Part shown: positions 542 to 64,000 of the stretch, piece by piece
Position numbering within the stretch: position 1 is the stretch's first letter
Layout: each line of letters begins with the position of its first letter
Assembly (NCBI GenBank): GCA_947568835.1
Contig: OX387609.1
Span: forward strand, 4,654,001-4,718,000
Direction: 5' to 3'
DNA: 64,000 bases
Source: Protonemura montana
Lineage: Eukaryota; Arthropoda; Insecta; Plecoptera; Nemouridae
The notes under the pieces: generated by a model
Seen by the model: only the letters and a program-made list of their open reading frames with translations
Databases searched by the model: none
What the model was told of the DNA's origin: nothing
Made by a program: the position numbers and the translations under genes

Positions 542-2437
542 ACAAATCCTGCTTCGCAAAGTGGGATAAGTCATCCCAGCACGAGTGTTTATAAATTATT
601 TAGTACATTATTAATTATTAGTACATATTAAGAGTAAAGAGTAAAGAGGTAAAGAGTTGAATACGATTTTACTTTTTCCATAAATATTTCTCTGTTGTGA
701 TACTTGATTGGTCTATGCCTTCAATTTACGCTATTCTGAAGGTGCCTTTTTGCATTATTGAACATGTTAGTTTATAATATTCGTGAAAAGCAAAGAAATA
801 TTTTTTTTCGCAAATTTATATACTTAAATGTAGAAGAAATAGTAAATTTTTCTTGGCAACAGATTTTCTTTATATGCCTTGAGAAATCTTAAAAAATCAT
901 CGTAATTTTCCACTTACATTTTCCACTTTTCTATTTTTAATTCGCTTGCTCACGAAATGTCTATGAAAATCCATTTTAGCTACGACTGGAAACGGGGTGG
1001 AAACACCAATGCAATGAAATCACGTGATATATTTGGAAAGAGGATATACTCCTGTCATTTATCCGCCCTAGATTCAACATAATGTTTTTATACATTTCTA
1101 ACAGAATTAAGAAACGGCCGATTAAATCATGGAATCGTTATGTTTTGTAACTATTTAATTTGTTACTTATGTTTGTCATTCGATTATAGGGGAGTTTTTG
1201 TCCTAAGAGTTTGTAAATTTATTTTTTACTTGATAATTTACTTGCCGTGCCTTCAAGAAACTAGCTAGCTGCTAATAATCATAATTTTGTGCTACCAGCA
1301 GTGTGTCAAAACAGTACCCCCCAAAGAACGGGAATAATTGATGCCCATACAGTTAATTATCACAATTATGTATGCATTTTTGTTCGGTCTCTCTCGGCAA
1401 ATACAAAAATATGATAGACATGACACATGTCAAAACAGTTGTAATTACGCTGTCGCCAAAGGGCTGTTAATTTTTGTTGTCTAGTTCTAGTCTGCACAAT
1501 TAATTATGTGAGACTTTTCTTTAAAACCACTCCGAGCCTACTCCTGCATGCATCTCAATGGACCCAAATACGTGTGTTTTGTTCAGTTACAATGTAAAAA
1601 AAAAAAAAGTTTTCTTGAAAAAAAAAAGAGACTGTCTTTTTACAATGCTTTTTACGCTGAAGATCTTCAAAGAAATTTACATAACTTGGGTGGGTCTTCG
1701 TTGCTAGGGGCCGCCCGAAAACATCCAATATCATTTTTAATGATGATATTTCTTCAAAATTGGTCGCAGAATTGCTACAAGATGCTACAAGTTATACAAA
1801 AACCGGGCCATTAGCCCAGAGGCGCAAGTTTGCCAGACTTTTTATTGTATGTGTATCAAATTGACGCTACGGCAGAAATGGACCGATTTAAATAGTTTGA
1901 CTTCGATCAAATCGACTGCGAACAATTTTAAATCAGCTGATTAGCAACAACAACAAAAGTCACAGGAAAGCCATTATTTTACCAAAATGTCAAGCACATA
2001 CTTCTAAGTAACAATTACCTACTATATCTGAACTTCATACGGGTTTCAAAGCACTGTGGTGAGAAGATCTAAGATGACATGTCACCAGGCAAATCTCTGG
2101 TCTGGAGATATTCTCACTTGGTTTTATGAGAAAGATGGTTTTATGAAAATGAGATAACCGCTCATGTCAATCGCAACGTAGGTTACAATTCTCTGTATGT
2201 CTGTATTATATATGTATTTTTATTAACTCGGAGAATGAATTTGATCTTTCATCAGAGAAACAGATTTAGAAGAATCTTAGTAGAACAACCGGTAGCTTTA
2301 GTTGCCATGAACAATATCTAAATATAAATCGTAACCATTGCCCAAGAAAGCTCATAATATATGATAGCATCTCAGCTCAGTGAAGTCATCCAATAGTAGA
2401 ATACCTCTTCATGGCATTGATCACCTTGAATACAGAG

Positions 2438-2535
2438 CCGGTGCCTCGAGCGAGGATCGAACCGGGCTATTAAAGATCGACTAATGAGTGGATAATGGTG
2501 CAGCGTCACGCCTCACTAAGGATATAGGTATTGCT
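2438..2535 (-). repeat. Decayed tRNA-like repeat related to 11925-12030
   Basis: The minus strand contains a B-box-like GGTTCGATCC. The plus strand shows GAGCCGGTGCCTCGAG followed by CAGCGTCACGCCTCACTA. A similar order of words (AGCCGTGCCTCTCGA, CAGCGTCCTGACCGCGTCACTA) occurs at about 11925-12030, so both are probably copies of one old SINE. The identity is too low for firm boundaries. Confidence 0.35.
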
Positions 2536-4137
2536 GCACAGGTGGGTGATCGACTACATGTGCATAGCCTTCTGTATGGATTAGTAATTAAGATGATTTA
2601 CTGTTCGTGTGTTCTTGGAGATAATGTTGTCAATATGTCTTACTTTTCGGCTGTTTCCTAGATCCAATAATATTGGTGCCAAAGGTTATCAAGAGTTAGG
2701 AACTCCTCTGCAAAATTATACTTTTCAAAATAGTTTTTTCTGTGTTTAGTAAATTTTTTGTAATCTTGCACTCGATGGATAGCGATTTATTTTTGTTTTT
2801 AGTTAATTAATTGTGACTGTTGATTTTATAAATTCGGAGAGTTTTATAGAAAGCCGTCAGTAGTAATTGATAAAATTGAAATTTTCCAAGCAAACCAGTG
2901 AAATAAATATTAAAACAAATAACCGCGCGAGTGTGCACGTAGAATTAGGTTTAAAAATCTCATGCAAATCCGTATTAATACTGGCAACTACCCCTTAATT
3001 TCTTTTAAAACATTTTTTCGATGACTTTTCGGCAGCCCTCTTAGGTTTTCCTCTACTTCGATGGTAAATATGATACTAAATTTAACAAACTACCGTAAGA
3101 AATGAAACAAGTGCTAGGTTTCATAGCAGTAGACATAAGTCTAAAACTGTAGGAAACTTCTTAATTGTTTTCAAACATTTATAAACGCTGGCTGCTTGCT
3201 TTTTTAAATCAATGAGGACTAAATTATATGATCACAATGTGACTAGATTGTATCAATTATAATTAGTATCAATGGGAAACATTAATATGTCTCAGAACAA
3301 ACCAAAGTGGATACAGGTTTAGAAGTTAACTCTTTCTCACACTTGTTATTCTTTCACACATTTTCTACTTGGCATTTATAAACACGTTTGCTTTGCTCAT
3401 CCACACAAAGACAAAGACCAAACTCTGGCCAAAATAAATCAGTGTTTCCTCCATATTGTAAAGCCTATAGACGCGTCTTTGTGCACGCTCCACGCACAAA
3501 CGCACAAATTAATCTAAAATTACATACCCGAACTCCAATTATTAAACAAGTCAGTTTAAAAATTCGAGAGGATCGCAATCAATTTGCATAGACCCGGATG
3601 TGGACTGCGGAACATCTTTTTCCTAAGGGCTGTAAGCCGCGACACGCAAGTGAACAATTTGCGCCCCGGGAGAGACGCGGACCCGGACCGGGTCTCTGAC
3701 TCAGGATTCTAAGTGCTACATGAAGAAGGCCATGGAGTGACTGTCATTTAGATGCAAAACAATAACATTTTCTATTGTTTGATCTTAAATGTATTGTATT
3801 TTAGAATCGAATTGCCTTTAAAAAACAAGTGTTCATGACCTTTGAAAAGCGGTTGACATTTTTATTTAGGCTCTGTAGTTTAAAATGTCCAATTATAGTG
3901 CGATCGCCTTGCTTCCGCAATATTGAATTATCTGTGATATGATTTTTATATCACTCATTTTTTATCAGTTCTCGAGTTTTGTAAATGTGCAGATTATGAT
4001 CAGCCATGGGAAACATAATAAGTTTAAATTGGCCAAAATCATAATAACGCCAGACATTGAGTTAATTGCAAGAAATTTCTTAGTGCAAGTTGGCCAGCCA
4101 TCCAAGTCTTGAGCAGACTTTGGTTACCATTAGTTTC

Positions 4138-13515: not shown

Positions 13516-15989
13516 ACCCACTCTAAGTGCGGTCATCACGATGCTACCGTGAAAATAGATGACGCGTGTGTCATGGCCGTTTTCAGGTTACGGTGCAGTG
13601 CGCGGTTTTACTCTTTTAATATCACAAATATTACCGTCATCTATTACTTTTGGCAAAAATTAGAGCAAAAATCAACTAGAATGACAAGAGCGAAACTAGA
13701 AGACCGGCAAGTTAAGTATTTCAGATTGAAATCGCCTGAAAGTCACATAAAAAATGCTAGCTGGAAGCTTTATAAAGCTCTCCGCGCCATTTTTAAGCAA
13801 AGTCCTTTACTAAAATGTAAAAACCATTGAGATGCAAGTAAATCATAGTTTTATTTTCATGTATTTTTTCTTTGGACTGTTCATGGATAAATGAGAGGTC
13901 AAGGGTCCCCTTATATTTATCGAAGACATTTTGTCCAAGAAAACTAAGTGAATTGGTCAGCAAGTCTCTGGATTCTCTAGAATAAATATTACTACGCAAA
14001 CACGGATTACTTTAACATCTATTTCTTTACGACATAGCATGAAAACAAGTAAATTACATCATGTAAACCGTATTCCATGTAACCCTCTTAAAAAACCACC
14101 AACAAGAATCCCAACTGGAAGTATTAAGATGTTTCCTGCGCTGTTTCCGTGGCGACCCGCCGGTTCCTGGTGATGTCAACGCACGACACCGCGAGTAGGA
14201 ACAGATAAAACTAACAAAGTAGAGGACAAATCGATCAGATCTTAACGGGCTGATTAGCGAGACACCTCAAGTCTAAAGTGTAAGGCCGAGGCGTGCCGCT
14301 CCGTGCTAGGTTGCTTGCCGATCACTCACTGAAGTCTACGATTCAAGTTCTAGCATTTACTTAAGTGAACCATTTTATCGTAGAAACATTAGCAACAACG
14401 CCATGTTCAGAGCCAAAATGCACCGGTTATCTATAATTCCATCATTTCGGTCAATTAATTTAGGTTCCAAGGCCAAGCGTTTCTTCTCTAATAGCTCTTT
14501 ATCTACACTCACCTGTTGATCTAAAAGTAAAATAACCCTCGTGTCTATAATCACCGTTTAGTCTAAATAAAGACCACTCTCTGTACAAAAACCGAATAAT
14601 CATCAATGTACAGTCGGTTTACACACAGGAAAAGAAAACTAGTGTTAGCCAGGCAAGTGTGAGCTTTTAAAAATTAATTGTCAATCAATCATTTTAGGCG
14701 TTAGCAGTCTCAAAATGAAGTGTACATCATGATGTAACTGACACTCTATATGCTGCAGTTACGGGCTCGGTATATGCTGAAGATTCAAACACCTTCAGCC
14801 TTCAAATGCCATCTTAAATCAACTCTTTATTCGGTCGTTACGGACTATAGATAGGCTTGATAATCTGAAGACATCCTGAGGCTTAAAAATTATTGTTTTA
14901 ACAAAACTTTGCAGCCGTTCCATGTTCTATATGCTCTAAGTTTCCTACGTTTTATATTTAGATTCAATGTCAATCGTATTCTCGATTCCATTCCTTACTT
15001 GCTCATCTAGAATCACGCTCATAAAATACGCGTACCTTCACAAAAAACCGATGAGCGCATTGATGAAGCGGTCATCCACCCACTAAAGTATTTAAAAACA
15101 GACAGTAAAAACGCAGGGAAACGCTACGGAACTAAATGCCAGTATGACGAAGACAGCAAATCACATATTTTCACATATTAAATCACATATTAAATCACAC
15201 ATATAAATCACAAATCACATATTAAATATTCCGAGTAATGCTTACTAAATTCTGGACAAAGGACTTAATATTTTCGGGCGCTTTAAATGCAGGTCATCAA
15301 GCGCCATTATCTAGTTACAGAAAAAGGACACTCTTAGGTTACTTTTAAGGATAACTACCACAAAAAATGGACACTCTCAAACTTATTCGCCATAAGAGCT
15401 AAATAACAGGAAGGGAGTCTCAACCATATTTGTTTGTGGTTCTTATCTAGAACTATAAAACCATATTATTTTATTTTGTCAAAATTCATCTGCCAATTTG
15501 CAATTTTTATCAACCAAAAGCAAACATATATAATTACAAATGTACTGTTTTTATACTATGGATCGGGGTCTAGAGATTAAAAGTGCAATTTTGTTACGTG
15601 TACATGATAAAATGTTTAGGAGTACATCACTGACTAAGCTTCGGTCGAAAATGACCTTACTTGTACCGTTGAGTGTAATACCTGCACCAATGTGCGTTTT
15701 TTGCACTGGCCTAGTTCTCTGCTAACGCTTGTGATAACTAGATAAGGGCAACCCGCACTTATCCAAAGCCAGCGTTAAACTGTAGGTGATAACGAGTTGG
15801 CAAGGTTGACCTCTGAAAGTTATTTATTTGGAAATAATTGCAATTTGTTGCAGACCAAGAGGTGAGTTGGTCGAGCGCCTGCTCGATTGGTGTTTTTGTG
15901 GGTTTTGTTCGGAATCAAGTTTTGGCTCAAATTTTCATGATTTTAAGTTAAAAATCAGCTGTGAGTTGACGTTATCATTCATTTTATAC

Positions 15990-16690
15990 AGAACTTCTCA
16001 AGTCTACTTTCTTATGTTACTTCGGGTATACCATGGCCTAGCATAGGAGGTTCAATGGTAGATTCAACGTTTGGTACCCATGGAGATGTCGAGATCATGA
16101 CAGAGCTTCTCAATTCTGCTATCTTATGTTACCACGGGTATATCATGGCCTAGAATAGGAGGTTCAATGGTAGATTCAACGTTTGGTAGCCATGGAGATG
16201 CTGAGATCGCCTCACAGAGCTTCCCAAATATGCTATCTTATGTTACCACGGGTATATCATGGTCTAGCATAGGAGGTTCAATGGTAGATTCAACGTTTGG
16301 TAGCCATGGAGATGCTGAGATCGCCTGACAGAGCTTCTCAATTCTGCTATCTTATGTTACCACGGGTATATCTTGGTCTAGCGTAGGAGGTTCAATGGTA
16401 GATTCAACGTTTGGTAGCCATGGAGATGCTGAGATCACCTGACAGAGCTTCTCAATTCTGCTATCTTATGTTACCACGGGTATATCTTGGTCTAGCGTAG
16501 GAGGTTCAATGGTAGATTCAACGTTTGGTAGCCATGGAGATGCTGAGATCACCTGACAGAGCTTCTCAATTCTGCTATCTTATGTTACCACGGGTATATC
16601 TTGGTCTAGCGTAGGAGGTTCAATGGTAGATTCAACGTTTGGTAGCCATGAAGATGCTGAGAGCTTCTCAATTCTGCTATCTTAAGTTAA
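15990..16690 (+). repeat. 114-bp satellite array, locus A (about six copies)
   Basis: The word GGTTCAATGGTAGATTCAACG begins near 16049, 16161, 16275, 16389, 16503 and 16617, so the period is 112 bp once and then exactly 114 bp. A partial copy precedes the first unit, and the last unit is shortened by an internal deletion. Copies are nearly identical in the middle and more diverged at the left edge, as expected for unequal exchange. The same monomer occurs three times at 45973-46298. 114 bp equals 38 codons, so reading frames run through several units, but in-frame stops in this array argue against a protein. Confidence 0.92.
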
Positions 16691-45434: not shown

Positions 45435-48400
45435 CTGGAAAAACCGAAAAAAGTGAGTGATATTAATGTGATAAGTGACAATTATTGTGACTGTAATCCT
45501 ATTTATTGTTAATTGGATTGTTTGTTGATGTTTTCAAGATTTTCATTGTATATTTTCTGCAATTTTTCTTATAGTTAGTCGATTTTTGTGTTTTAGTTAT
45601 TTTTCCTACAGTCTCAAGTCTGAATAGAAATATCTCTTTTATAACCAACAATTTTACGATGTGAATTTCAAATTTTTGTTTGTGGCCCACACCATGAATC
45701 TTATGGTGTCCCAGAAATTGTACCCTTTCCTCTCAATAAAGAGTTTTAGTAAGTATATATTTTTTTAATTGTCATACAATTCAACGTAAAATAGTTGAAC
45801 GCCTTATATTTCAGATATCATTCAACGGGTGCTTTTATTGCTCGAATTTGTTTATCAGTGTGCCCTATACTGTCAAATGTTCCTCTAATGCAGTGATTTA
45901 CTCAAATTTTTTCAAGACAGTATTTTTTGTTGCTATCATTGAAAACAAACAAATATTATCAAGCATACTAGGTCGAATGGTAGATTCAACGTTTGGCAGT
46001 CATGGAGATGCTGAGATCGCCCGACAGAGCTTCTCAATTCTGCTATCTTATGTTACCACGGGTATATCATGGCCTAGCATAGGAGTTTCAATGGTAGATT
46101 CAACGTTTGGTAGCCATGGAGATGCTGAGATCGCCTGACAGAGCTTCTCAATTCTGCTATCTTGTGTTACCACGGGTATATCATGGCCTAGCATAGGAGT
46201 TTCAATGGTAGATTCAAAGTTTGGTAGCCATAGAGATGCTGAGATCGCCTGACAGAGCTTCTCAATTCTGCTAACTTATGTTACCACGGATTTATATACT
46301 ACTAGGAAATACCTTGTGGCAGATGGTGCAGCTAAAAGGCCGCTCGCCCGTATGTATCCTCATGTGCTGTTTAAGAAGCATCTTACGAGAGAAGCTTTTA
46401 GGGCAGAACGTGCACGTGTGTGGCTTCAGTCCAGTGTGAATCCGCACGTGCATGTTGTAGGCAACTCGTTGGTTGAAACTTTTCTCGCAGAACTGACAGG
46501 CGTACTGAAAACAGAAAGGTAACGTGGTGGGTTAGGAATGGAGGTGTGAAAATCTTGCTAAAAAAAAATCCCACATATTCCATAAAACAGAGTAAAAGTA
46601 AAGCCTCAAAGTTTGAAGATAATTAGTCAACAACAACTGGTTTTTCTTGGTTTTCAGAGGTAGCTTCCGTAGTAAACACCGTTTTTCTTCCAACTTTTTG
46701 GGAATGAGCTGAACATTTGATTTGAGGATCCGGCGCAGAGGAATGCAAAAAAAAGATTATTTTCAAAATTGGAGTTCAAATTTTTTTCTAGCTTATCGTA
46801 ACTTCTGTTTAGTTACTTTAACTGTTCGATTTGTTTATTTTTTTATTTTTAATCTCAGGCAGGTCGTTTACTAACTACAGAGTTATATTTAGGTCGAGTT
46901 TTACGAACATTTTCAACTATAAGTTGGACCTCTAACTCACAGAAACTCTGAATTTCACTGCATGTGACTGGAAGTCGTCATGGCAATAGTTTCGACAAAC
47001 ACTTCAACTATAAGAGGCGAGATTTTGAGTATAATAGTTACCTCTCCAAATAAATAGTTATGATTTAAATATCGAAAAATGAATATACGTAGTTGAGGTT
47101 AGCATTAATACAGATTAGTTGAGCGAAGACCAGTCTCAGGATATCTGATGATGATTGAAAAAAGACATACAGTAATATAATTATAAATGTAATTAAAGAG
47201 AATAATTAATCATCTTGTTTTACTATCATTTGAGGTTGTAATACTAAACAATTTGTTTCTTGTTATGGGTCATTCCATATCAAGTGCCCACACTCAAAAC
47301 CTTCACTATCTCAGAACTTGACGAAATTTTCAGGAGGGTTAGAACACCGGAAATAAAAAATCTCTTTTAAAGTTTTTTTCCATATGTCTAGCGGTTTGCC
47401 CGTGGCAGGGGATGGAAAAATAAAATATTTTACTTTTTGCCCCGCACGGCCATTCACTATATTCACTCTAGCGTTTGAACAAATAAACTTAAAACAATGG
47501 GATTAGTTCTAAAATGATAATCGTGCTTTCATTAACAAGAAAAAATGCATAAATTGCTTACTTATCAAGTTTAGGGGTAGAAAAAATCCACCCTTAAATT
47601 TCAACCCTTAATAACTCGAGAAGTAATATTTTTTTTTTTTTTTTGTTTTGTTGTGAAGCATCTCCTGTCTATTATCTTTCCATGAAAAAAAAATTAATCA
47701 TTAACAGCCGTATGATCAGAAGTTATGAGATTTTTATTGTATAAATGTGTGTGCATTTAGTTGTGTTTCTGCAAGTCTGTTAGCATGGTCCATGCAAATC
47801 ACCCGTAAATTGATAGATTATATAATTTTTCAGTTTAAAAATTGTGTGTAAGTACTACAAAGATTCTTTTTACTCACTCATTTCTTCGTTTCACTCTGAC
47901 CTATCACTCTGGCTTCTTCGAACAACGGCGAGGAGGAGAACACCCGCGTGGCTACTGAGTGCTCAGACACGGGTACGAAGCAATGCAGTTTTTGCGTGCC
48001 GGGAATTGGCCGGGATGACGCAAATCGTGTGGCTAGCACCTGTTCTGTGTCTTGGTGCTCCTCAATAGTTCCGAATGTGAAGTTGATGGTCGGGATGGCT
48101 TCGACCGCCCAATCGAAGAGTTGCCGGGGTGTTATTATTTGCGACTCGTAGGGGCGCTGAAGACTCGCCCGCGCTGCCAGCCGCTTGACCGTCCCTCCGA
48201 CGCCGTCGCAGGCGCTCTTCCCATGTGACGTCGCCGTGAAATGCCACTCCACGTCGGCCCCAAAGTCTCTTTGATAGTGGCACAAGTTGGCAAAATTTTT
48301 CCTATTTTTATATTGCGAGGCTGCCCCATCAGAAAAATAGAACATCTTCTTTATGGTCTGAAATTTATTGTGCAAAAAGCTCACGAGTTTTTTTATGAAT

Positions 48401-51400
48401 AGATGCACTGCGACAGTGTTGTGGATCAAACTCTCGGAAATTACAACAAAGCTGATGTGGCGCTCTTCCCCGCCCTCTTTGTAATATGCCACGAAGGGGT
48501 GGATGGTGGCGGACGCATTGTTCCAGTGGAACCCCTGGGCCTCGTCTTGTAGCACGAACGCATAGTTTTCGGCAAAATCACAGATCACCAAAAACTCGCC
48601 GGGCAGGAGACCGCACTTGATGTCCGATTGGTGCGAAGATTGTTTTTTAGCAATAAAAGAGTGGCGGCACAGAGCAACTAATTTTGCACAACAACTGTCC
48701 ACGAATTCCTCGGATGAATCGATGTGCGTTTGCAGGGTGCATCGGTCGGATAAAAGAGTGGATTTTCAAAATTTGCAGAGCTGCGGCCGAAGAACTGTGT
48801 GTTGCCTGGTGCCAGTGGGACTCATTCGGTGTGCGTGTGCACTATCCACCAAAACGTCAAGCTAATGATCATCGGTGCCGACTTGACGAAGTTGACAGTG
48901 GACCAATCTTATCCGATAACATCTTACCACGACTGCCTTGAGCAGTTGGTCTGCGACAGTCCCCTCCCCGAATGCCATCTAGGCGAGTGTGAGGAGTGCC
49001 CGGGCATCGAGCCGTTAAAGGAGCGCCTCACGCAACTGCTGGACGACGAAATGGTGGACAATGTTATCTACAAGCAGTGGGAGAGCACCGACCGATGCAC
49101 CCTGCAAACGCACATCGATTCATCCGAGGAATTCGTGGACAGTTGTTGTGCAAAATTAGTTGCTCTGTGCCGCCACTCTTTTATTGCTAAAAAACAATCT
49201 TCGCACCAATCGGACATCAAGTGCGGTCTCCTGCCCGGCGAGTTTTTGGTGATCTGTGATTTTGCCGAAAACTATGCGTTCGTGCTACAAGACGAGGCCC
49301 AGGGGTTCCACTGGAACAATGCGTCCGCCACCATCCACCCCTTCGTGGCATATTACAAAGAGGGCGGGGAAGAGCGCCACATCAGCTTTGTTGTAATTTC
49401 CGAGAGTTTGATCCACAACACTGTCGCAGTGCATCTATTCATAAAAAAACTCGTGAGCTTTTTGCACAATAAATTTCAGACCATAAAGAAGATGTTCTAT
49501 TTTTCTGATGGGGCAGCCTCGCAATATAAAAATAGGAAAAATTTTGCCAACTTGTGCCACTATCAAAGAGACTTTGGGGCCGACGTGGAGTGGCATTTCA
49601 CGGCGACGTCACATGGGAAGAGCGCCTGCGACGGCGTCGGAGGGACGGTCAAGCGGCTGGCAGCGCGGGCGAGTCTTCAGCGCCCCTACGAGTCGCAAAT
49701 AATAACACCCCGGCAACTCTTCGATTGGGCGGTCGAAGCCATCCCGACCATCAACTTCACATTCGGAACTATTGAGGAGCACCAAGACACAGAACAGGTG
49801 CTAGCCACACGATTTGCGTCATCCCGGCCAATTCCCGGCACGCAAAAACTGCATTGCTTCGTACCCGTGTCTGAGCACTCAGTAGCCACGCGGGTGTTCT
49901 CCTCCTCGCCGTTGTTCGAAGAAGCCAGAGTGATAGGTCAGAGTGAAACGAAGAAATGAGTGAGTAAAAAGAATCTTTGTAGTACTTACACACAATTTTT
50001 AAACTGAAAAATTATATAATCTATCAATTTACGGGTGATTTGCATGGACCATGCTAACAGACTTGCAGAAACACAACTAAATGCACACACATTTATACAA
50101 TAAAAATCTCATAACTTCTGATCATACGGCTGTTAATGATTAATTTTTTTTTCATGGAAAGATAATAGACAGGAGATGCTTCACAACAAAACAAAAAAAA
50201 AAAAAAAATATTACTTCTCGAGTTATTAAGGGTTGAAATTTAAGGGTGGATTTTTTCTACCCCTAAACTTGATAAGTAAGCAATTTATGCATTTTTTCTT
50301 GTTAATGAAAGCACGATTATCATTTTAGAACTAATCCCATTGTTTTAAGTTTATTTGTTCAAACGCTAGAGTGAATATAGTGAATGGCCGTGCGGGGCAA
50401 AAAGTAAAATATTTTATTTTTCCATCCCCTGCCACGGGCAAACCGCTAGACATATGGAAAAAAACTTTAAAAGAGATTTTTTATTTCCGGTGTTCTAACC
50501 CTCCTGAAAATTTCGTCAAGTTCTGAGATAGTGAAGGTTTTGAGTGTGGGCACTTGATATGGAATGACCCTTATGTGGTTATGAATCCTGGAATCCGGTA
50601 TCAAACTTGAAGCAAGGGTGAAACTTGATTGATGCAAGAAATAAGTTAAAGTGTTCATAATAATAAAAAACAACTTCTTCGTCTGGTTTATTTACCTTTA
50701 CATTCCTTTTGCGCATAACATACAATGAAAAGTATACACATAATGTTTTCGTGCTATACCTGAACAACTGAATACGGAATAGGAAGCCAAACGTTTCAAG
50801 TGTGAGTCTCATTTAGTTATTCATACATTTTTCGATACCATCGAATCCAGAAGAAAGATAATTAACAGAGGTAAAATAACGAGACATAAAATGCTTCGTT
50901 CGAATAACTAATAGATCTTCATACTCCCTATTTGCCCAGACTTTGAGGGGTCTAAAATTATTCAAAACTATCTAAAACGTGCAACTCTCTTTTCCTCAGT
51001 TAAAAGTAGACGCTTTACTCCAACTAAATGCCTCGTGAAATCGGCAATCTACTGACTGCAGATGTGATTCGACATCGGTTCAAAGCAGCTTTTTAATTCT
51101 AATCAACAAAATTTTTGAAAAATTTGAAATGACAGTTTCATTTTGTGGTATGATGTCATATTGACTAAGCGTGATTCATAAACAAATTTACCCGATAGCA
51201 CTGGTACTAAATTCTGAATTCGATAGGCGTGTTTAAACTTGCTATCAACATGAAGATAAGAGGATAAACCAGTACAAAGACTCGTAAAGAAATGTTGTCT
51301 TCAACTTTACACTAAAGAATAATCAATCATAATCTTGCTAACACTTTTTCTCATAGACAAAAAGAAGTCAACCTCCTCAGGCATTGATTGTTTTTCTTGG

Positions 51401-55091: not shown

Positions 55092-57706
55092 TATATCCTC
55101 CTGGATATAAAAATTAACTGAAAAAAATCTAGAATATGATTGATGATATATAAATATATTGCTGATATTACCGATAGCAACAATTAATCACTCTGCGTAC
55201 GCACCTTGAGCGACGCACGAGTAATGAAAGACTTGGCGCAGTGCGTGCAGACATGCGTGCCAGCGGCGCGTGGTTCGTGCTGCTTCTGGTGCGTCGACCA
55301 ATGGCCACGTTGCGTGAACTCCTTGCCGCACTCCTCGCAGCGGTAGGGCTTTTCGCCACTGGAAACAGATTTCTGTGAGACAATTTATAACTTGCGTCCT
55401 TCGTTTTGAATTAGATTAATCTTTAGCGCTACCAACATTTAATACTAAAGGTCTCAGGTCTTCCTAACGTAGGAGTAAAATGGGGCTCACAATTTTTTTT
55501 AAGTCCACAGCAACGAAACAAATGAATTGCTGTGCAATTTTGTTTCTACTCCTCCATTCTCCTTACAGGTATTTTATGAAATATTTGTTTTTTATGAATA
55601 CTAAAAAAAAAACAGTGTTACGGTTACTACCAGGCTAGAAATACAATGTTTAAAAAACTGTATCTTCTAAAAGTGAATGGTCCAAAAAAGCCTGTAAAAA
55701 TAACGTTTTGGTTAAAGGGCTCTTTTCTGCTGCAGAAAGTGTGGTGACGTACAGGAGGCGGCTCAAATTTCGTAATGACCGCCCTCCCTCTCATATATAT
55801 ATATAGCATACAAAGAGTGCAATCTATGGGTCATGCCGGAAAAAATGTGATAATTTTGGAAAAAAATATCAGTCCACCCAAAAACCTACCTGTGGATTCT
55901 CTGGTGCTGTACCAACAATTGCCTCCTCGCAAAGTGTTTCCCGCAGTCGTCGCAACCGTGGACTTTAACGGCGACGTCGGCCAAGAGCGCCTGCGTTAAA
56001 ATACTACACGACGCCTCGGCGTCGCCCTTCTTCTCAGCCGTGACGACGCCGACGTCCAGCGTCTCGACGTCGACCAGCGACATCGACGCTTGAGGAACGT
56101 CCAATTTCTGGTTAGGTTGTGGAGGTGGTGGTAGCATGGAAAAGTTGAGTGGTGTTTCGAGGCTCGTGTTCACTTTTGTCCTGTTGCTGTCTTCAAGGAT
56201 TTTATTCAGTATGTTGATTCTGTCAAACGGCTGTAGCGAAGTTTTCAACAGGGTTGTTTTCGAAGCGATTTCGGTTGTTTTGAAAGCTTGATTGGGAACA
56301 TTTTGCTGCGATTTTGTTGTGGTTGAGCATTGTTTCAGCTGAAGGCGATGTTGGTGTGACTTTTCAATAAATAACTGTTTTCTTTCTGGCGATTCTACGT
56401 TGACAGAACGCACTTCGGGAGTTTCGATGCAAAGACGTTTCGTGATTTCATTGTGAGCAGAGTTCCAAGAACGACTTTGCTCTGAAACGATCCTCCGTCC
56501 GATATCGTCTGATCGTTTCAAACTCTCCAGACCCTGTCTTGTCTTTTCTCGGACGTCCAGTGAATTCGAACAACCGTTAACTCGAATCTCTTCGCGATAA
56601 CGCAGTATTCTCTCATAAATATCGTTGTTCCTGCTAGCGATGGCTTCGCCCTGGATAGGCCCATCCCGTCCTCTGGCAAAATCTCTCGGAACAACCGCGA
56701 ATTTGTCAGGGGTCGCCTCTTCAATGATCTGCACATCATCGTCCTTCTCAGGGGACTTCCTAGCCAACAGCTGACGCCTTGACGACAAATCTTTCACACC
56801 ATCGCTGATCACCGTCTCAGGAAAACTCTGTTCACTCGCCATTTTAACACTGTTGATGAAAAGCCTGTCATTTTCCTTCATGGTCAAGTCAAGTAAGCCA
56901 AAGAGTGGATTTTTCTCTGAGTCTTCTTCTTCGGCAGGTATCTCGACGGGACGCCAATGTTTCAGCGGCGTCGTCCTTGTAGACGCAGGCGGCCAATTCG
57001 GCGGCGCCGACGCCATTTCGGAAGCGGGGACGTCGACGACGTCGTCCCTGGACGTTTGTTTGTGCATTCTGACGTTGTCTTGACTGGTCCGTTGTATGGG
57101 CATTAGGGAGGGCAACGGTTTAACACGCGCCAACCCTCGCGGTCGGTCGCTTGACATCCGTCGCTTTTGTCCGACGTGTACCTTGGATATCGACATTCCG
57201 GGAAGATTGTTTAAGATCTCGGTCACGTTGATGTCGTCGATATCAGCGCCCTGATGAAGACGGCTATCGGCCATTTGTTTTCTTTCGTTGATTTCGAATT
57301 TTAATTTCGCTTCTTGTTCGAATTTGGACATTTTTTCTTCGACGAATTCGCGCGCACGCTCGATGCTCTTCATGAAGTAGACTTTTGGCAAATTGGCGCA
57401 GTTTTTTAAATACGTTTCCGCTTCTAGTTCTAGTTTTAAAAGCTTGTATTTGTATTCTTCTTCTCCGGCGAAACCTAGATTCAGGTCGCGGTGGTTGGTG
57501 GTTTGTCGTGCTGGTTTGCCCTTGATTGGGTTGAGTATCTCGATGTCCAGAAGGGAAGCTAGGCTCAGGAAGCTATTGAACCGACTTTTGCTGACGGACA
57601 CCTTTCCCGTGTAGATGAAGAGCAAAATGGCGGCCATATCTTCGTGGTGGACGTCGTCCAGGATTATAGTGACGTGGTCGTCGAGGGGATGCGACAGCAG
57701 GAGTTT
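45195..57706 (-). CDS. BTB/POZ and C2H2 zinc-finger transcription factor
   Basis: This is a nuclear DNA-binding regulator of the BTB-ZF class: a BTB domain for dimerisation and co-repressor binding and ten C2H2 fingers for DNA binding. Exons are 57706-55890, 55358-55205, 53638-53432, 46504-46313 and 45434-45195 (stop). All splice phases agree, giving 869 visible residues. The first exon starts inside the BTB fold (HPLDDHVTIILDDV, then FIYTGKVSVS). A long, probably disordered linker of over 500 residues follows, then finger 1. The remaining exons hold fingers 2-10, with TGEKP-like linkers (SGEKPYR, TGERPF, SGIKPY). The last finger is C2HC (RTHRKRC). The 5' exons with the first half of the BTB fold are not visible and may lie beyond the Helitron. 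The intron at 46505-53431 carries a satellite and the palindromic transposon. I cannot assign an orthologue. Confidence 0.92.
45973..46298 (+). repeat. 114-bp satellite, locus B (three copies)
   Basis: The same monomer as at 15990-16690, with unit starts near 45973, 46087 and 46201, i.e. exactly 114 bp. Shared words include GTAGATTCAACGTTTGG, CATGGAGATGCTGAGATCGC and TTACCACGGGTATATCATGG. It lies in the last intron of the BTB-ZF gene and ends about 15-20 bp from the splice donor at 46312. Being 30 kb from locus A, it implies spread by more than local unequal exchange. Confidence 0.92.
46313..46504 (-). CDS. BTB-ZF exon: fingers 6 and 7, start of finger 8
   Basis: GTTTTCAG|TACGCC to CACAAG|GTATTT, 192 bp. 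CQFCEKSF with HVRIH, then TGLKPHT and CTFCPKSF with HMRIH, then TGERPFSCTICHK opening finger 8. The donor is only about 15-20 bp from the edge of the 114-bp satellite in the following intron. Confidence 0.92.
46918..47035 (+). repeat. Dispersed repeat, copy 2 (see 10804-10915)
   Basis: TCTAACTCACAGAAACTC through AGGCGAGATTTTG parallels copy 1, with substitutions at roughly one base in eight by eye. It lies in a BTB-ZF intron next to the transposon insertion. Confidence 0.6.
47267..48749. repeat. Left arm of the palindrome
   Basis: The reverse complement of 49088-50570. On the minus strand it carries the C-terminal 274 or so codons of the transposase-like gene (47878-48702), identical in translation to the right arm. 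The join to the centre falls between ATCGGTCGG and ATAAAAGAG. Confidence 0.95.
47878..48750 (-). pseudogene. Inverted duplicate of the transposase 3' half
   Basis: Encodes the same C-terminal residues as 49137-49959, including VICDFAENY, FSDGAASQYKN and HGKSACDGVGG, but on the minus strand. It lacks everything upstream of about residue 96 of the right-arm frame. It is a passive product of the inverted duplication and not a second gene. Confidence 0.85.
48754..49959 (+). CDS. 5'-truncated DDE-like transposase of the palindromic element
   Basis: The frame is open from just after an in-frame TAA at 48751 to TGA at 49957. There is no good ATG at the start: family-like sequence (FSKFAELRPKNCVLPG, then GTHSVCVCTIHQNVKLM) already runs into the junction. 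Numbering from the GTG at 48799, candidate catalytic acids are D154 in VICDFAENY, D237 in FSDGAASQYKN and D278 in HGKSACDGVGGTVKR. Spacing of about 83 and 41 residues fits an RNase H-fold DDE/D transposase. A cysteine-rich patch (CHLGECEEC) precedes them and may bind zinc. I know similar proteins as unnamed transposon-borne ORFs in animal genomes, but cannot name the superfamily. The gene is GC-rich against the AT-rich flanks. Without its N terminus it is probably inactive. Confidence 0.75.
   Translation, partial: KSGFSKFAELRPKNCVLPGASGTHSVCVCTIHQNVKLMIIGADLTKLTVDQSYPITSYHDCLEQLVCDSPLPECHLGECEECPGIEPLKERLTQLLDDEMVDNVIYKQWESTDRCTLQTHIDSSEEFVDSCCAKLVALCRHSFIAKKQSSHQSDIKCGLLPGEFLVICDFAENYAFVLQDEAQGFHWNNASATIHPFVAYYKEGGEERHISFVVISESLIHNTVAVHLFIKKLVSFLHNKFQTIKKMFYFSDGAASQYKNRKNFANLCHYQRDFGADVEWHFTATSHGKSACDGVGGTVKRLAARASLQRPYESQIITPRQLFDWAVEAIPTINFTFGTIEEHQDTEQVLATRFASSRPIPGTQKLHCFVPVSEHSVATRVFSSSPLFEEARVIGQSETKK
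49088..50570. repeat. Right arm of the palindrome
   Basis: Begins CCGACCGATGCACC inside the coding frame, passes the stop at 49959 and continues through about 610 bp of AT-rich 3' flank, with poly(A) and poly(T) runs, to GGAATGACCC at the terminus. Confidence 0.95.
52054..52579 (+). pseudogene. Two adjacent unidentified frames in a BTB-ZF intron
   Basis: The first frame (52054-52254) is cysteine-containing (CKLCTYC, KCTYCRQ) and passes a splice-like CGGCAG|GTAATT. The second (52217-52579, shifted) reads SLEDLKRILVGVQLNVEMS, CDCRCHFKEAAQTMVQVVD and FDWLESLCKEIAGSDKTLAN, then becomes AT-rich. The composition is protein-like in both, with a frame change at about 52220-52250. This suggests a decayed mobile-element gene on the strand opposite to the host gene. 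I recognise no family. Confidence 0.3.
52954..53187 (+). pseudogene. Unidentified short Lys-rich frame
   Basis: A 77-codon frame with KKERNKKKVFREI, then VTFKNAVKDFLIQHSFYSID and a C-terminal CVCTFCNAI. It may belong with 52054-52579 as part of one decayed element. No promoter, splice or domain evidence was seen. Confidence 0.22.
53432..53638 (-). CDS. BTB-ZF exon: end of finger 3, fingers 4 and 5
   Basis: TTCTCTAG|GTTCAC to AAAGAG|GTAAGA, 207 bp. It starts VHVRTHSGIKPYQ, closing finger 3, then CPDCNKEF with HLSIH, an AGTNEFACT spacer, and CPECGKYF with HMKIH, followed by LNKKE at the donor. Confidence 0.92.
53639..55204. other. BTB-ZF intron between the finger 4-5 and finger 2-3 exons
   Basis: Close to the exon, imperfect repeats of an AACTC and GAGAAGGACAGG-type unit occur at 53641-53830, about 55-60 bp each. 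A short TA run (53868), a poly(T) run (55059-55088) and a copy of the TAGAC/GTCTA dispersed repeat (54905) follow. There is no gene. Confidence 0.6.
55205..55358 (-). CDS. BTB-ZF exon: finger 2 and most of finger 3
   Basis: GTTTCCAG|TGGCGA to CTCAAG|GTGCGT, 154 bp. It begins GEKPYRCEECGKEF with HQKQH closing finger 2, then an EPRAAGTHV spacer and CTHCAKSF of finger 3, whose histidines are in the next exon. It is GC-rich. Confidence 0.9.
55890..57706 (-). CDS. BTB-ZF exon: BTB C-terminal half, linker, finger 1
   Basis: The acceptor GTCCACAG|AAACTC opens in phase 0. The BTB alpha-helical half (HHEDMAAILLFIYTGKVSVS, SLASLLDIEIL) is followed by about 520 residues rich in Ser, Arg, Glu and Pro with short charged patches. 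These include an EEEDSEKNPLFGLLDLTMKE segment and an RRRQL-like basic run, with no known domain. Finger 1 (CDDCGKHF, HQRIH) ends at ATCCACAG|GTAGGT, leaving AG to join T and form Ser in SGEKPYR. The codon at 57637 (Met) is internal and not the start. Confidence 0.92.
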
Positions 57707-61720: not shown

Positions 61721-64000
61721 TTAGGAGGAGGAGGCGTCCATTGGAACTTCTTCATCCGCATCCGATACAGCGAGTTGACTAAGCGACTGCTCAAGGGCCT
61801 GCTGGTCAGCCTCTTGATAGCCACTACGCGAGGAAGGATCCGCTGCCTGGTGGTCCGGCGCATGAATCTCGAGCACCTCCTGGTACACGATGTTCTTGGT
61901 GAAGGTGGTGTTGCTCGAGACGATCAACTTGCCCTGCGCCTCGTTACCGGCGACTGCCACGAAGATCGAGTCCAAAGAGCGAGCCCGAGAAAGCGCCACG
62001 TATAGCTGACCGTGTCCGAATACTGGTTTTTCTAAATGAATTCCCACCCTCTTTAAAGATTGACCCTGGGCTTTATTGATGGTCATGGCGAATGCCAGAC
62101 GGATCGGAAACTGGCGCCTTGTCATCGTAAAGGGCATGCCAATGTCCGAGGGAGTTAGGTTGACTCTACATAGGAAAGTGCGTCGTCCCGCACAGCGCCC
62201 TCCGATGATCCTGCAGTCGATCACGTGCTCGTGGAGTGCAACAACGCTGAGTCGAGTCTTATTGCATAGGCCGGCTCTCACGTCGACGTTCCTCATGAGC
62301 ATCACGATTGCATGAACTTTCAGACGAAGCTTGTGCGGTGGCATCCCGGATGGCGTTAATGAATTTAGATATTCTACGGGATAATCGGTAGCCAAAACGT
62401 CGCCATCTTCGCCTTCACTGACATCGACAGTGTCGGCGCTGCAGTATTCGAACACGTCACCTTCGAGGCGCTCAAGAACGTTGTCATTGATGTTCAAAGA
62501 CTCCACGTTCTTCGGGCAGAGGATGGCATGGTCTTGCATCACGGCCATCTCGGCAGCACTAATGCTCGTGCCGAAGACGGCGTCAATGACGCAGTCCACG
62601 ACGCATTGGACAGGTAATGCGATGGTGTCATCCGGGAGGTGGCAGTCATTCAAAATCTCGCCGTTTCCGACACGCAAGAGCCACTCGACGAACTCTACTT
62701 CGCCTGGGTTGGCGCGCATGTTCGCGCGCAGCTCGAGGGTGCGGAACAACGACCAAAGCTCGCCACGCTTAATGCATTGCTCGACAATGGTCGTTCGGTT
62801 GCCATTTCGAACGACTGGGAGGCACTGCCTAAAATCCCCGCCGATAACGATCACCTTTCCGCCGAACGGACGCTCATCGTTGGTCACGTCTCTTAGCGTC
62901 CGCTCGATCACGTTCAGGGCCAGCAGAGGCGCCATGGGTCCTTCATCCAAGATGATGACCTTGGCCGCCCTCAGCGAAGCGCCCTCGGCGGAGTTGGGCT
63001 TCACGCCAGACGTGCTGTTTTCCACAATCGGAACAGGCAATCGAAATCGCGAGTGGCAGGTCCTCCCTCCCTTCAGTAACGTCGCCGCAATGCCCGTCCA
63101 CGCGACGGCCACGGCTCGCTCGCCTCGGGCTCGCAGCGTGCTGATGAGGGTGTTGTATAGGAAGGTCTTCCCGCTGCCGCCCGGGCCGTCCAGGTAGAAG
63201 CACCTCTGCTCGGCGTTCGGGTCGTCGATTGCTGCCATCACCGCGTCGAATGCCACGCGCTGCCTGCCGTTGAGCTTCACCAAGTTCTCCTCGGCCTCTT
63301 CCCTTTCGGCGGTCTGGTCGAACTGCTCGTCGACAGCAACGATGACTGGCACTCGAGGCGCCGGCAAACCGATTTCGGCGTTGGTCAGGCGGTGTAGGGC
63401 AAGGACGGACTGGATGGAATTCAGGGCCAACTGTTCTGCCTCGATGGGGTCGTGTTCTCGGGCGAAATCTTCGCAGAAATCGCCCTTGAAACGCTCCCAT
63501 AGAGACAGCGGGTCAAGAGGCTGACAGAACGCGCAAATGATAGCAAACAGCTGACGAAGTTCGTTTGGCATCTTTATAGCAACCGCCTCCTGCAGACATT
63601 TCTGCCACTCGTCGTCGTCCATTAGCAGGTTGCGTGCGATGGCAGCTTCCTTGAAGGTAGCGTAAACCCTACCCTGGAACGTGCGCACGTCCTCGAATGA
63701 GGTGGCGCCGGCGACGTGTAGCAAAAGGAGACGAAGATGGTATCGCTCGATCTGCCGGGGCGTCACGGAGTACATTCGGCTGATGATTGAGCCGGCACCT
63801 CGCTTTCGTGGCTTCCACGCTTTGCCCTCGAAACGGAAGTGGTACGGGATGTCGATGTACTTGTACTGCCGTGCCGCCGGGTTGCTACTATTCAGCGCAA
63901 ACCATGCCGTCAGCGTAGTCAGCGCAGCCCTGCCGCGTTCTGCTGCGGCTTCCTCGTCTCCAGGACGGAACGTGACCATGTGGTCACCCTCGAGGTGGAT
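61721..64000 (-). CDS. Helitron helicase (Pif1-like), partial at the window edge
   Basis: This is the C-terminal part of a RepHel-type protein that unwinds DNA during rolling-circle transposition. At least 759 codons are open without interruption; the Met at 63979 is internal because IHLEGDH precedes it in frame to the edge. Numbering from that Met, Walker A GPGGSGKT is at 265-272, Walker B VIILDEGPM at 341-349, GGDFRQCLPVV at 380-390 and LRANMR at 417-422. Near the C terminus are AFAMTINKAQGQSLKRVG and GQLYVALSRARSLDSI (motifs V and VI). The upstream residues (ARQYKYIDIPYHFRF, SRMYSVTPRQIERYHLRLLL) match the Helitron region between Rep and helicase. Base composition is far GC-richer than the surroundings. 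Intactness and composition suggest a recent arrival. The acidic/Ser tail ends at a TAA. Confidence 0.97.
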   Translation of the reverse strand: MHLEGDHMVTFRPGDEEAAAERGRAALTTLTAWFALNSSNPAARQYKYIDIPYHFRFEGKAWKPRKRGAGSIISRMYSVTPRQIERYHLRLLLLHVAGATSFEDVRTFQGRVYATFKEAAIARNLLMDDDEWQKCLQEAVAIKMPNELRQLFAIICAFCQPLDPLSLWERFKGDFCEDFAREHDPIEAEQLALNSIQSVLALHRLTNAEIGLPAPRVPVIVAVDEQFDQTAEREEAEENLVKLNGRQRVAFDAVMAAIDDPNAEQRCFYLDGPGGSGKTFLYNTLISTLRARGERAVAVAWTGIAATLLKGGRTCHSRFRLPVPIVENSTSGVKPNSAEGASLRAAKVIILDEGPMAPLLALNVIERTLRDVTNDERPFGGKVIVIGGDFRQCLPVVRNGNRTTIVEQCIKRGELWSLFRTLELRANMRANPGEVEFVEWLLRVGNGEILNDCHLPDDTIALPVQCVVDCVIDAVFGTSISAAEMAVMQDHAILCPKNVESLNINDNVLERLEGDVFEYCSADTVDVSEGEDGDVLATDYPVEYLNSLTPSGMPPHKLRLKVHAIVMLMRNVDVRAGLCNKTRLSVVALHEHVIDCRIIGGRCAGRRTFLCRVNLTPSDIGMPFTMTRRQFPIRLAFAMTINKAQGQSLKRVGIHLEKPVFGHGQLYVALSRARSLDSIFVAVAGNEAQGKLIVSSNTTFTKNIVYQEVLEIHAPDHQAADPSSRSGYQEADQQALEQSLSQLAVSDADEEVPMDASSS

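Follow-up and report, generated by a model that had tools for sequence, protein, structure and literature searches.

The transposon Tc4 of Caenorhabditis elegans occurs as a short, nearly all-palindromic, non-autonomous form beside a longer, gene-bearing relative, Tc4v. A reference title (Yuan et al. 1991) terms Tc4 a fold-back element, and its target is a TNA duplicated within CTNAG (PMC11071193). In some copies of Galileo, a member of the P superfamily in Drosophila, terminal inverted repeats (TIRs) have been extended by recruiting internal sequence (PMC4168063, PMC3573991); in D. willistoni the extension includes the final piece of the transposase frame and the target-site duplication (TSD) is 7 bp (PMC4168063), and in D. 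mojavensis the longest TIRs reach about 1.26 kb and none of the transposase-bearing copies has an intact frame (PMC3573991). Mu killer of maize has lost internal sequence, takes both its TIRs from one and the same parental end, carries transposase sequence in an inverted duplication of about 1300 bp, and is described as a locus that silences its parent (PMC3440606). Tetris (PMC4079207) and Tm1 (PMC3169594) are named as foldback families, and Sola2 elements combine a 4-bp TSD with TIRs of 12-21 bp (PMC3627910). Here we describe a palindromic transposon at 47267-50570 of a 64,000-nt stretch of the genome of Protonemura montana (assembly GCA_947568835.1, contig OX387609.1, here C12:4654001-4718000, "the window"), which very probably belongs to a mobile, single, non-autonomous palindromic lineage of a cut-and-paste DNA transposon.

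The lineage resembles Tc4 in that a palindromic, non-autonomous form has spread beside a longer, gene-carrying relative. It differs in its TSDs, which are 4 bp long and varied rather than TNA within CTNAG, in arms that hold transposase-coding DNA, and in comprising a number of architectures, part of whose order is known, alongside full-length copies in which the frame is open. With Galileo the lineage shares the recruitment of internal sequence into the inverted ends, but its arms reach 1.64 kb, its TSD is 4 bp, and the transposase frame persists in seven of nine sampled full-length copies. Membership of Galileo or the P superfamily was rejected because the TSD is 4 bp rather than 7-8 bp and no THAP domain match was listed in Pfam scans of the transposase. 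The likeness to Mu killer is one of structure only, both ends coming from one parental end and the transposase being duplicated in inverted orientation; Mu killer is described as a silencing locus, whereas the palindromes described here lie at 42 loci. Sola, compared by description, is alike in its 4-bp TSD, the TIRs of Sola2 being 12-21 bp long and those here about 490 bp. The window lineage is built like a foldback element and is a member of neither Tc4 nor Galileo; it joins features of Galileo, Mu killer and Tc4 with a partly readable series of architectures beside open-frame full-length copies.

The window element is 3304 bp long and consists of two 1483-bp arms around a 338-bp centre (Table 1). 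The reverse-complemented left arm aligns to the right arm with 0 mismatches over 1483 nt, and beyond these limits the match continues for 0 nt in either direction, outward or inward, so the outer limits of the palindrome are the ends of the element. The termini read GGGTC...GACCC, and TTAT stands on either flank as a 4-bp TSD. Inverted termini with a fixed-length 4-bp TSD are those of the TIR order, and with arms of 1483 + 1483 bp in 3304 bp the element has the structure of a foldback transposon; no repeat array was found within 47267-50570, so the internally repetitive TIRs that are a feature of Drosophila FB and Galileo are absent. A first-pass annotation, made from the letters alone, had described, with exact coordinates, two inverted arms of equal length, the 338-bp centre, the TTAT flanks and the stop of the palindrome at the transposon ends, and all held on alignment. 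Chance is excluded by the length of the match, 1483 bases, and by the recurrence of the 3303-3304-bp arrangement at eight loci. The window copy, of the type called A below, is a cut-and-paste transposon derivative with two inverted copies of the 3' part of its parent. The earlier wording, two 3' halves and no 5' half, is right for the interior and goes too far for the outer 490 bp or so, which TIR sequence does not assign to 5' or 3' because the two parental TIRs are nearly identical.

The host genome comprises 258.5 Mb in 34 contigs. A search with one arm, in which 40 of 571 first-look candidates were scored, found the 3303-3304-bp arrangement at at least eight loci together with other arrangements, and counting by junction patterns (up to 2 mismatches allowed) located palindrome junctions of four main architectures, A to D, at 42 loci. 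In the coordinates of the full-length parent, type D (3205 bp) runs from 3780 to 2384 joined to 1959 to 3780; its junction was found at 18 sites in 17 loci, which include loci L044 and L045, the half element L032 (2 mismatches) and other derivatives, and 12 of the 17 retain an unaltered 1062-nt marker spacing. Type A (3304 bp; junction at 10 loci) runs from 3780 to 2299, continues with 12 nt and resumes at about 1971 to end at 3780, and one copy (L009, contig C5) has its second arm cut short. Type B (3090 bp; six loci) runs from 3780 to 2170, a 12-nt filler, and 2314 to 3780, with arms of 1467 bp. Type C (nine loci) runs from 3780 to 2409, a short filler, and 2436 to 3780; one copy, L042, is 2723 bp long with perfect 1346-bp arms and 31 nt between them, and another, L043, is 2718 bp long with imperfect arms. 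L044 is a D derivative with an internal deletion, and L045 is a longer palindrome whose perfect arms take up 1644 + 1644 of its 3412 bp, with the D junction inside each arm.

TSDs and flanks show that the palindromes inserted independently at their loci. In the first set of elements with both ends, 23 of 24 have a perfect 4-bp TSD (14 larger palindromes and nine full-length copies). When 25 further palindromic loci were tried, four had no recognisable end and 20 of the other 21 had a perfect TSD, which brings the palindromic copies with both ends read to 34 perfect TSDs out of 35. The exception in the first set, L046 (1006 bp), has no TSD, is about 93% identical and lacks the diagnostic bases 3551T and 3660A (see below); it was left out of the lineage. 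Since nearly all copies carry their own TSD, the palindromes were already complete when they moved. The eight complete type-A copies, the window's included, have perfect TSDs that all differ in sequence, and among the other seven, four match the window element exactly, two depart from it at 1 nt, and L040 has one substitution and one length change relative to it. When the flanks of ten elements (800 bp each side) were compared with the loci, no flank was common to the element ends of two copies, and only repeats of 46-113 bp were shared, the closest of them 16 bp away from the end of an element. The first-pass annotation had proposed insertion as a unit and a recent event, and the type-A copies support both; it had also allowed that the inversion formed at the window site after insertion, which is not supported, the same internal junction being present at 10 loci, eight of them read as complete elements. 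Of the copies that it proposed to look for, full-length-like ones lie at 56 loci by two markers, and palindrome junctions lie at 42.

The parent was read at locus L033, where the element is 3780 bp long, has the TSD GCAT/GCAT and carries one intronless frame of 689 amino acids; its left and right TIRs are identical at 489 of 493 nt, and beyond them the sequences diverge. Genome-wide, the family has 257 termini (up to 2 mismatches) and 56 full-length-like loci, defined by a 5'-unique and a mid-gene marker, which stand exactly 1500 nt apart in 52 of the 56. Ten of these loci were fetched (L033, L048-L056). Among nine sampled recent copies (L033, L048-L055), any two are separated by 0-7 substitutions and 0-5 gap positions; the 689-amino-acid frame is open in seven, and the remaining two have frames of 527 and 705 amino acids. 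The tenth, L056, is older: it is 98.7% identical to L048 and has frame-breaking gaps, with a perfect 4-bp TSD. For the 689-amino-acid protein, 945 of 7995 scored candidates are relatives at E <= 0.001, the best with 56% identity over 98%. In an examination for an RNase H-fold DDE/D transposase, acidic residues including D457 and D540 were invariant across 35 aligned sequences. Its Pfam matches are weak and all below cut-off, no single family matched more than two of 35 homologues in a Pfam scan, a single-sequence PDB search gave weak matches (E 0.56 and 0.84) and a PDB search with the transposase profile gave none; no superfamily name is assignable from these Pfam and PDB searches. Contig C14 has eight 5'-marker sites without the mid-gene marker at 243262-3438687, perhaps another deletion derivative or duplicated segments.

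A common haplotype links the palindromes to one another. Single-nucleotide polymorphisms (SNPs) were called relative to the full-length copy L048 in 28 palindromic elements, 14 of them partial reads. The bases 2710A, 3551T, 3660A and 3662A occur in all 28 at every covered position and in none of the nine recent full-length copies. Genome-wide, 80 of 81 exact 2710A sites lie within 2 kb of a palindrome junction, and the terminus with 3660A and 3662A has 66 exact matches, 65 of them in palindromic loci with at least one in each of the 42. The remaining match, a palindrome-type terminus at C3:8957595, was assigned to none of these loci. By this four-SNP haplotype the palindromes look like one lineage, which most likely descends from one older full-length sub-lineage, and the haplotype makes several independent births from recent full-length copies unlikely.

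The order of descent is partly written in the junctions. Type A keeps ATAAAAGAGTGG, the left-arm stretch that abuts the D junction, and is therefore derived from D by a second-generation rearrangement; L044 and L045 contain the D junction itself and so descend from D as well. The base 2356G is on the long arm of D in seven of eight D copies (L028 lacks it), the short arm ending before the site, and it is on both arms of types A and B, which fits a long arm copied onto both sides. Private changes found in both arms comprise 3235T>C (L030), 3339G>A (L045) and 3403C>A (L029, L043). The third of these also occurs in one arm of L044; lying next to a poly-A run and seen in other copies, it may recur. 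Other changes are confined to a single arm: 3654C>T (L036, L039, L040), 2565T>A in L021, 3393C>T in L031, and 3768T>C in one end of L027, L029 and L031, whose opposite ends have the exact standard terminus. Two A copies have 3654T in the right arm and another has it in the left, as exchange between arms would give. With one-arm changes standing beside both-arm changes, recency explains most of the arm identity, and the sequences suggest arm-to-arm conversion or re-copying in a few cases. Ongoing conversion, which the first-pass annotation had offered as a reason for identical arms, thus has partial support.

For the birth of the lineage we lean slightly towards gap repair. The first palindrome, D, could have formed in the repair of a double-strand break, probably after excision, that copied the 3' part inward from both sides. 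The near-identical TIRs would have let one strand switch to the wrong end, and the two copied strands would then have been joined end to end through microhomology. The same repair acting on a palindrome, with either arm as template, may have produced A, B, C, L044 and L045. Inspected by eye, the two sides of the D joint share GG, with AATAAAA just upstream in both, the 12-nt B filler CGATGTGCGATG holds an inverted copy of a 9-mer from the adjacent right arm, and at the C joint a nearby 6-mer, GATTGG, is repeated. Templated fillers are typical of microhomology or polymerase-theta joining. We envision that the transposase of the full-length copies moves the palindromes in trans. A palindrome has no parental 5' half, the presumed site of the promoter, and its frame begins only at about residue 304 (the 386-amino-acid frame of the window copy lacks the transposase N-terminus and the parental start), which leads us to infer mobilisation in trans, probably by full-length copies. 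The earlier suggestion that one terminus used twice suffices for transposition loses its special force because the parental TIRs were already near-identical.

Several observations weigh against a single palindromic lineage that arose and moved in this way. The 81st 2710A site belongs to the old full-length copy L056, which also has 3250T and 3662A and lacks 3551T and 3660A, and some palindrome SNPs recur in recent full-length copies (2356G in L049, 3009G and 3250T in L033, 3250T in L053); the latter suggest exchange or shared ancestry, so that ancestry may be partly shared or mixed. The arms of L044 differ in haplotype outside the four diagnostic sites, the right arm lacking 3009G and 3250T, as if two palindromes had recombined. 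Both ends were read in 35 of the 42 palindromic loci, and one of these 35 copies, L030 at C16:12340689, has no TSD (ATGT/ATTA); given its private change in both arms it is perhaps a recombinant. Types B and C share the haplotype and lack the D scar, so for them we infer that D, and not a sister palindrome, was the ancestor. The new joint of type A has no microhomology by eye. In an ungapped comparison of up to 100 bp, inverted flanks were found in none of 21 copies. As the founder locus did not come to light, the mode of birth is reconstructed from descendants, and mobilisation in trans likewise is deduced from the structure of the copies. Palindromes of the 5' half, which a symmetric repair model permits, were not found: there were 0 facing pairs among 70 5'-unique-marker sites, and the sole pair within 10 kb points the same way. 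After a single founding event, their absence says little.

A second route to the first palindrome, which concerns its birth only and leaves the mobile lineage as it is, is that a resected or nascent 3'-side single strand snapped back at microhomology near parent position 2384 and was copied outward. We regard this as a real but tentative possibility. Read in reverse (3780 to 1959, then 2384 to 3780), type D has the geometry of a large-loop fold-back, small-loop and large-loop hairpin inversions are described in yeast (PMC7467729), and the 31 nt between the perfect arms of L042 would suit such an event. End joining is suggested by the fillers of the B and C joints and by the 12-nt scar of A, yet it can follow a fold-back; the 21 copies without inverted flanks also speak against it, with the qualification that flank duplicates would be left behind when the next transposition moves the element alone.

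It is rather doubtful that the lineage began, again as a matter of birth only, with two nearby insertions in opposite orientation, 3' ends outward, whose interiors were fused by a deletion and whose outer ends then moved as a unit. The geometry permits this, and the family, with its 257 termini, is abundant. However, wherever both D arms are covered their haplotype is the same, which would call for two equal copies, and A, B, C, L044 and L045 would have to be explained as further rearrangements. Host DNA was found at none of the centres of seven mapped palindromes (window, L031, L042-L045, L047), which hold only fillers of up to about 12 nt without parental match.

We give almost no weight to a fold-back artefact of assembly, amplification or sequencing, although perfect inverted arms have its classic look, since the type-A junction recurs at 10 loci, its eight complete copies have unlike flanks and eight different perfect TSDs, and architectures that differ in arm length share one haplotype. 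Scarcely any credence is due, either, to a family with very long TIRs of which the window copy is an ordinary internal deletion: foldback-type families do have long TIRs (PMC3573991, PMC4168063), but the ends of L033 match over 493 nt and then differ, which contradicts it, and the window arms hold transposase coding sequence.

Table 1. Features of the palindromic element in the window (positions in the window)
Feature	Position	Strand
Left TSD, TTAT	47263..47266	
Left arm, inverted 3' part of parent (parent 3780 down to 2299)	47267..48749	-
Left TIR, counterpart of the parental TIR of about 490 bp	47267..47760	+
Open frame of 274 amino acids, inverted copy of the transposase C-terminal part	47878..48702	-
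12-nt scar ATAAAAGAGTGG, remnant of the type-D junction; last GG assignable to either side	48750..48761	
Single-copy centre, transposase coding (parent about 1973-2298)	48762..49087	+
Open frame of 386 amino acids, transposase residues about 304 to 689	48799..49959	+
Right arm (parent 2299-3780)	49088..50570	+
Right TIR	50077..50570	+
Right TSD, TTAT	50571..50574	

Elsewhere in the window, a frame of 752 amino acids with PIF1 helicase domains lies at 61721-63979 on the minus strand, which we assume could be the helicase part of a Helitron; G+C is 57% at 62001-64000 and 37% for the whole window. What appears to be the same 114-bp tandem repeat forms two arrays about 30 kb apart, at 15988-16662 and 45976-46289. 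A minus-strand frame of 583 amino acids at 55886-57637, with weak, below-cut-off BTB and C2H2 zinc-finger matches, is perhaps an exon of a host gene.

Kilobase-long, near-perfect palindromes are usually thought unstable. In this genome transposition appears to have carried one palindrome lineage to dozens of loci, alongside full-length and probably active parents, and junction scars and SNPs allow its descent to be put partly in order. We speculate that the palindrome could be a self-renewing replicator whose arms are re-copied by excision and gap repair, and that it could also serve as a spreading Mu killer, though we think this unlikely. If it were so, either arm could template repair and one arm would be re-copied onto both sides in each round; such re-copying would keep the arms identical and let arm length evolve stepwise, from D to A, B, C and L045, and a mobile inverted duplication of the transposase could take with it, wherever it inserts, the silencing of its parent by hairpin RNA. 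The lineage offers a natural system for the birth of foldback transposons, for the re-copying of arms in transposition and for the silencing of a parent by mobile inverted duplications.

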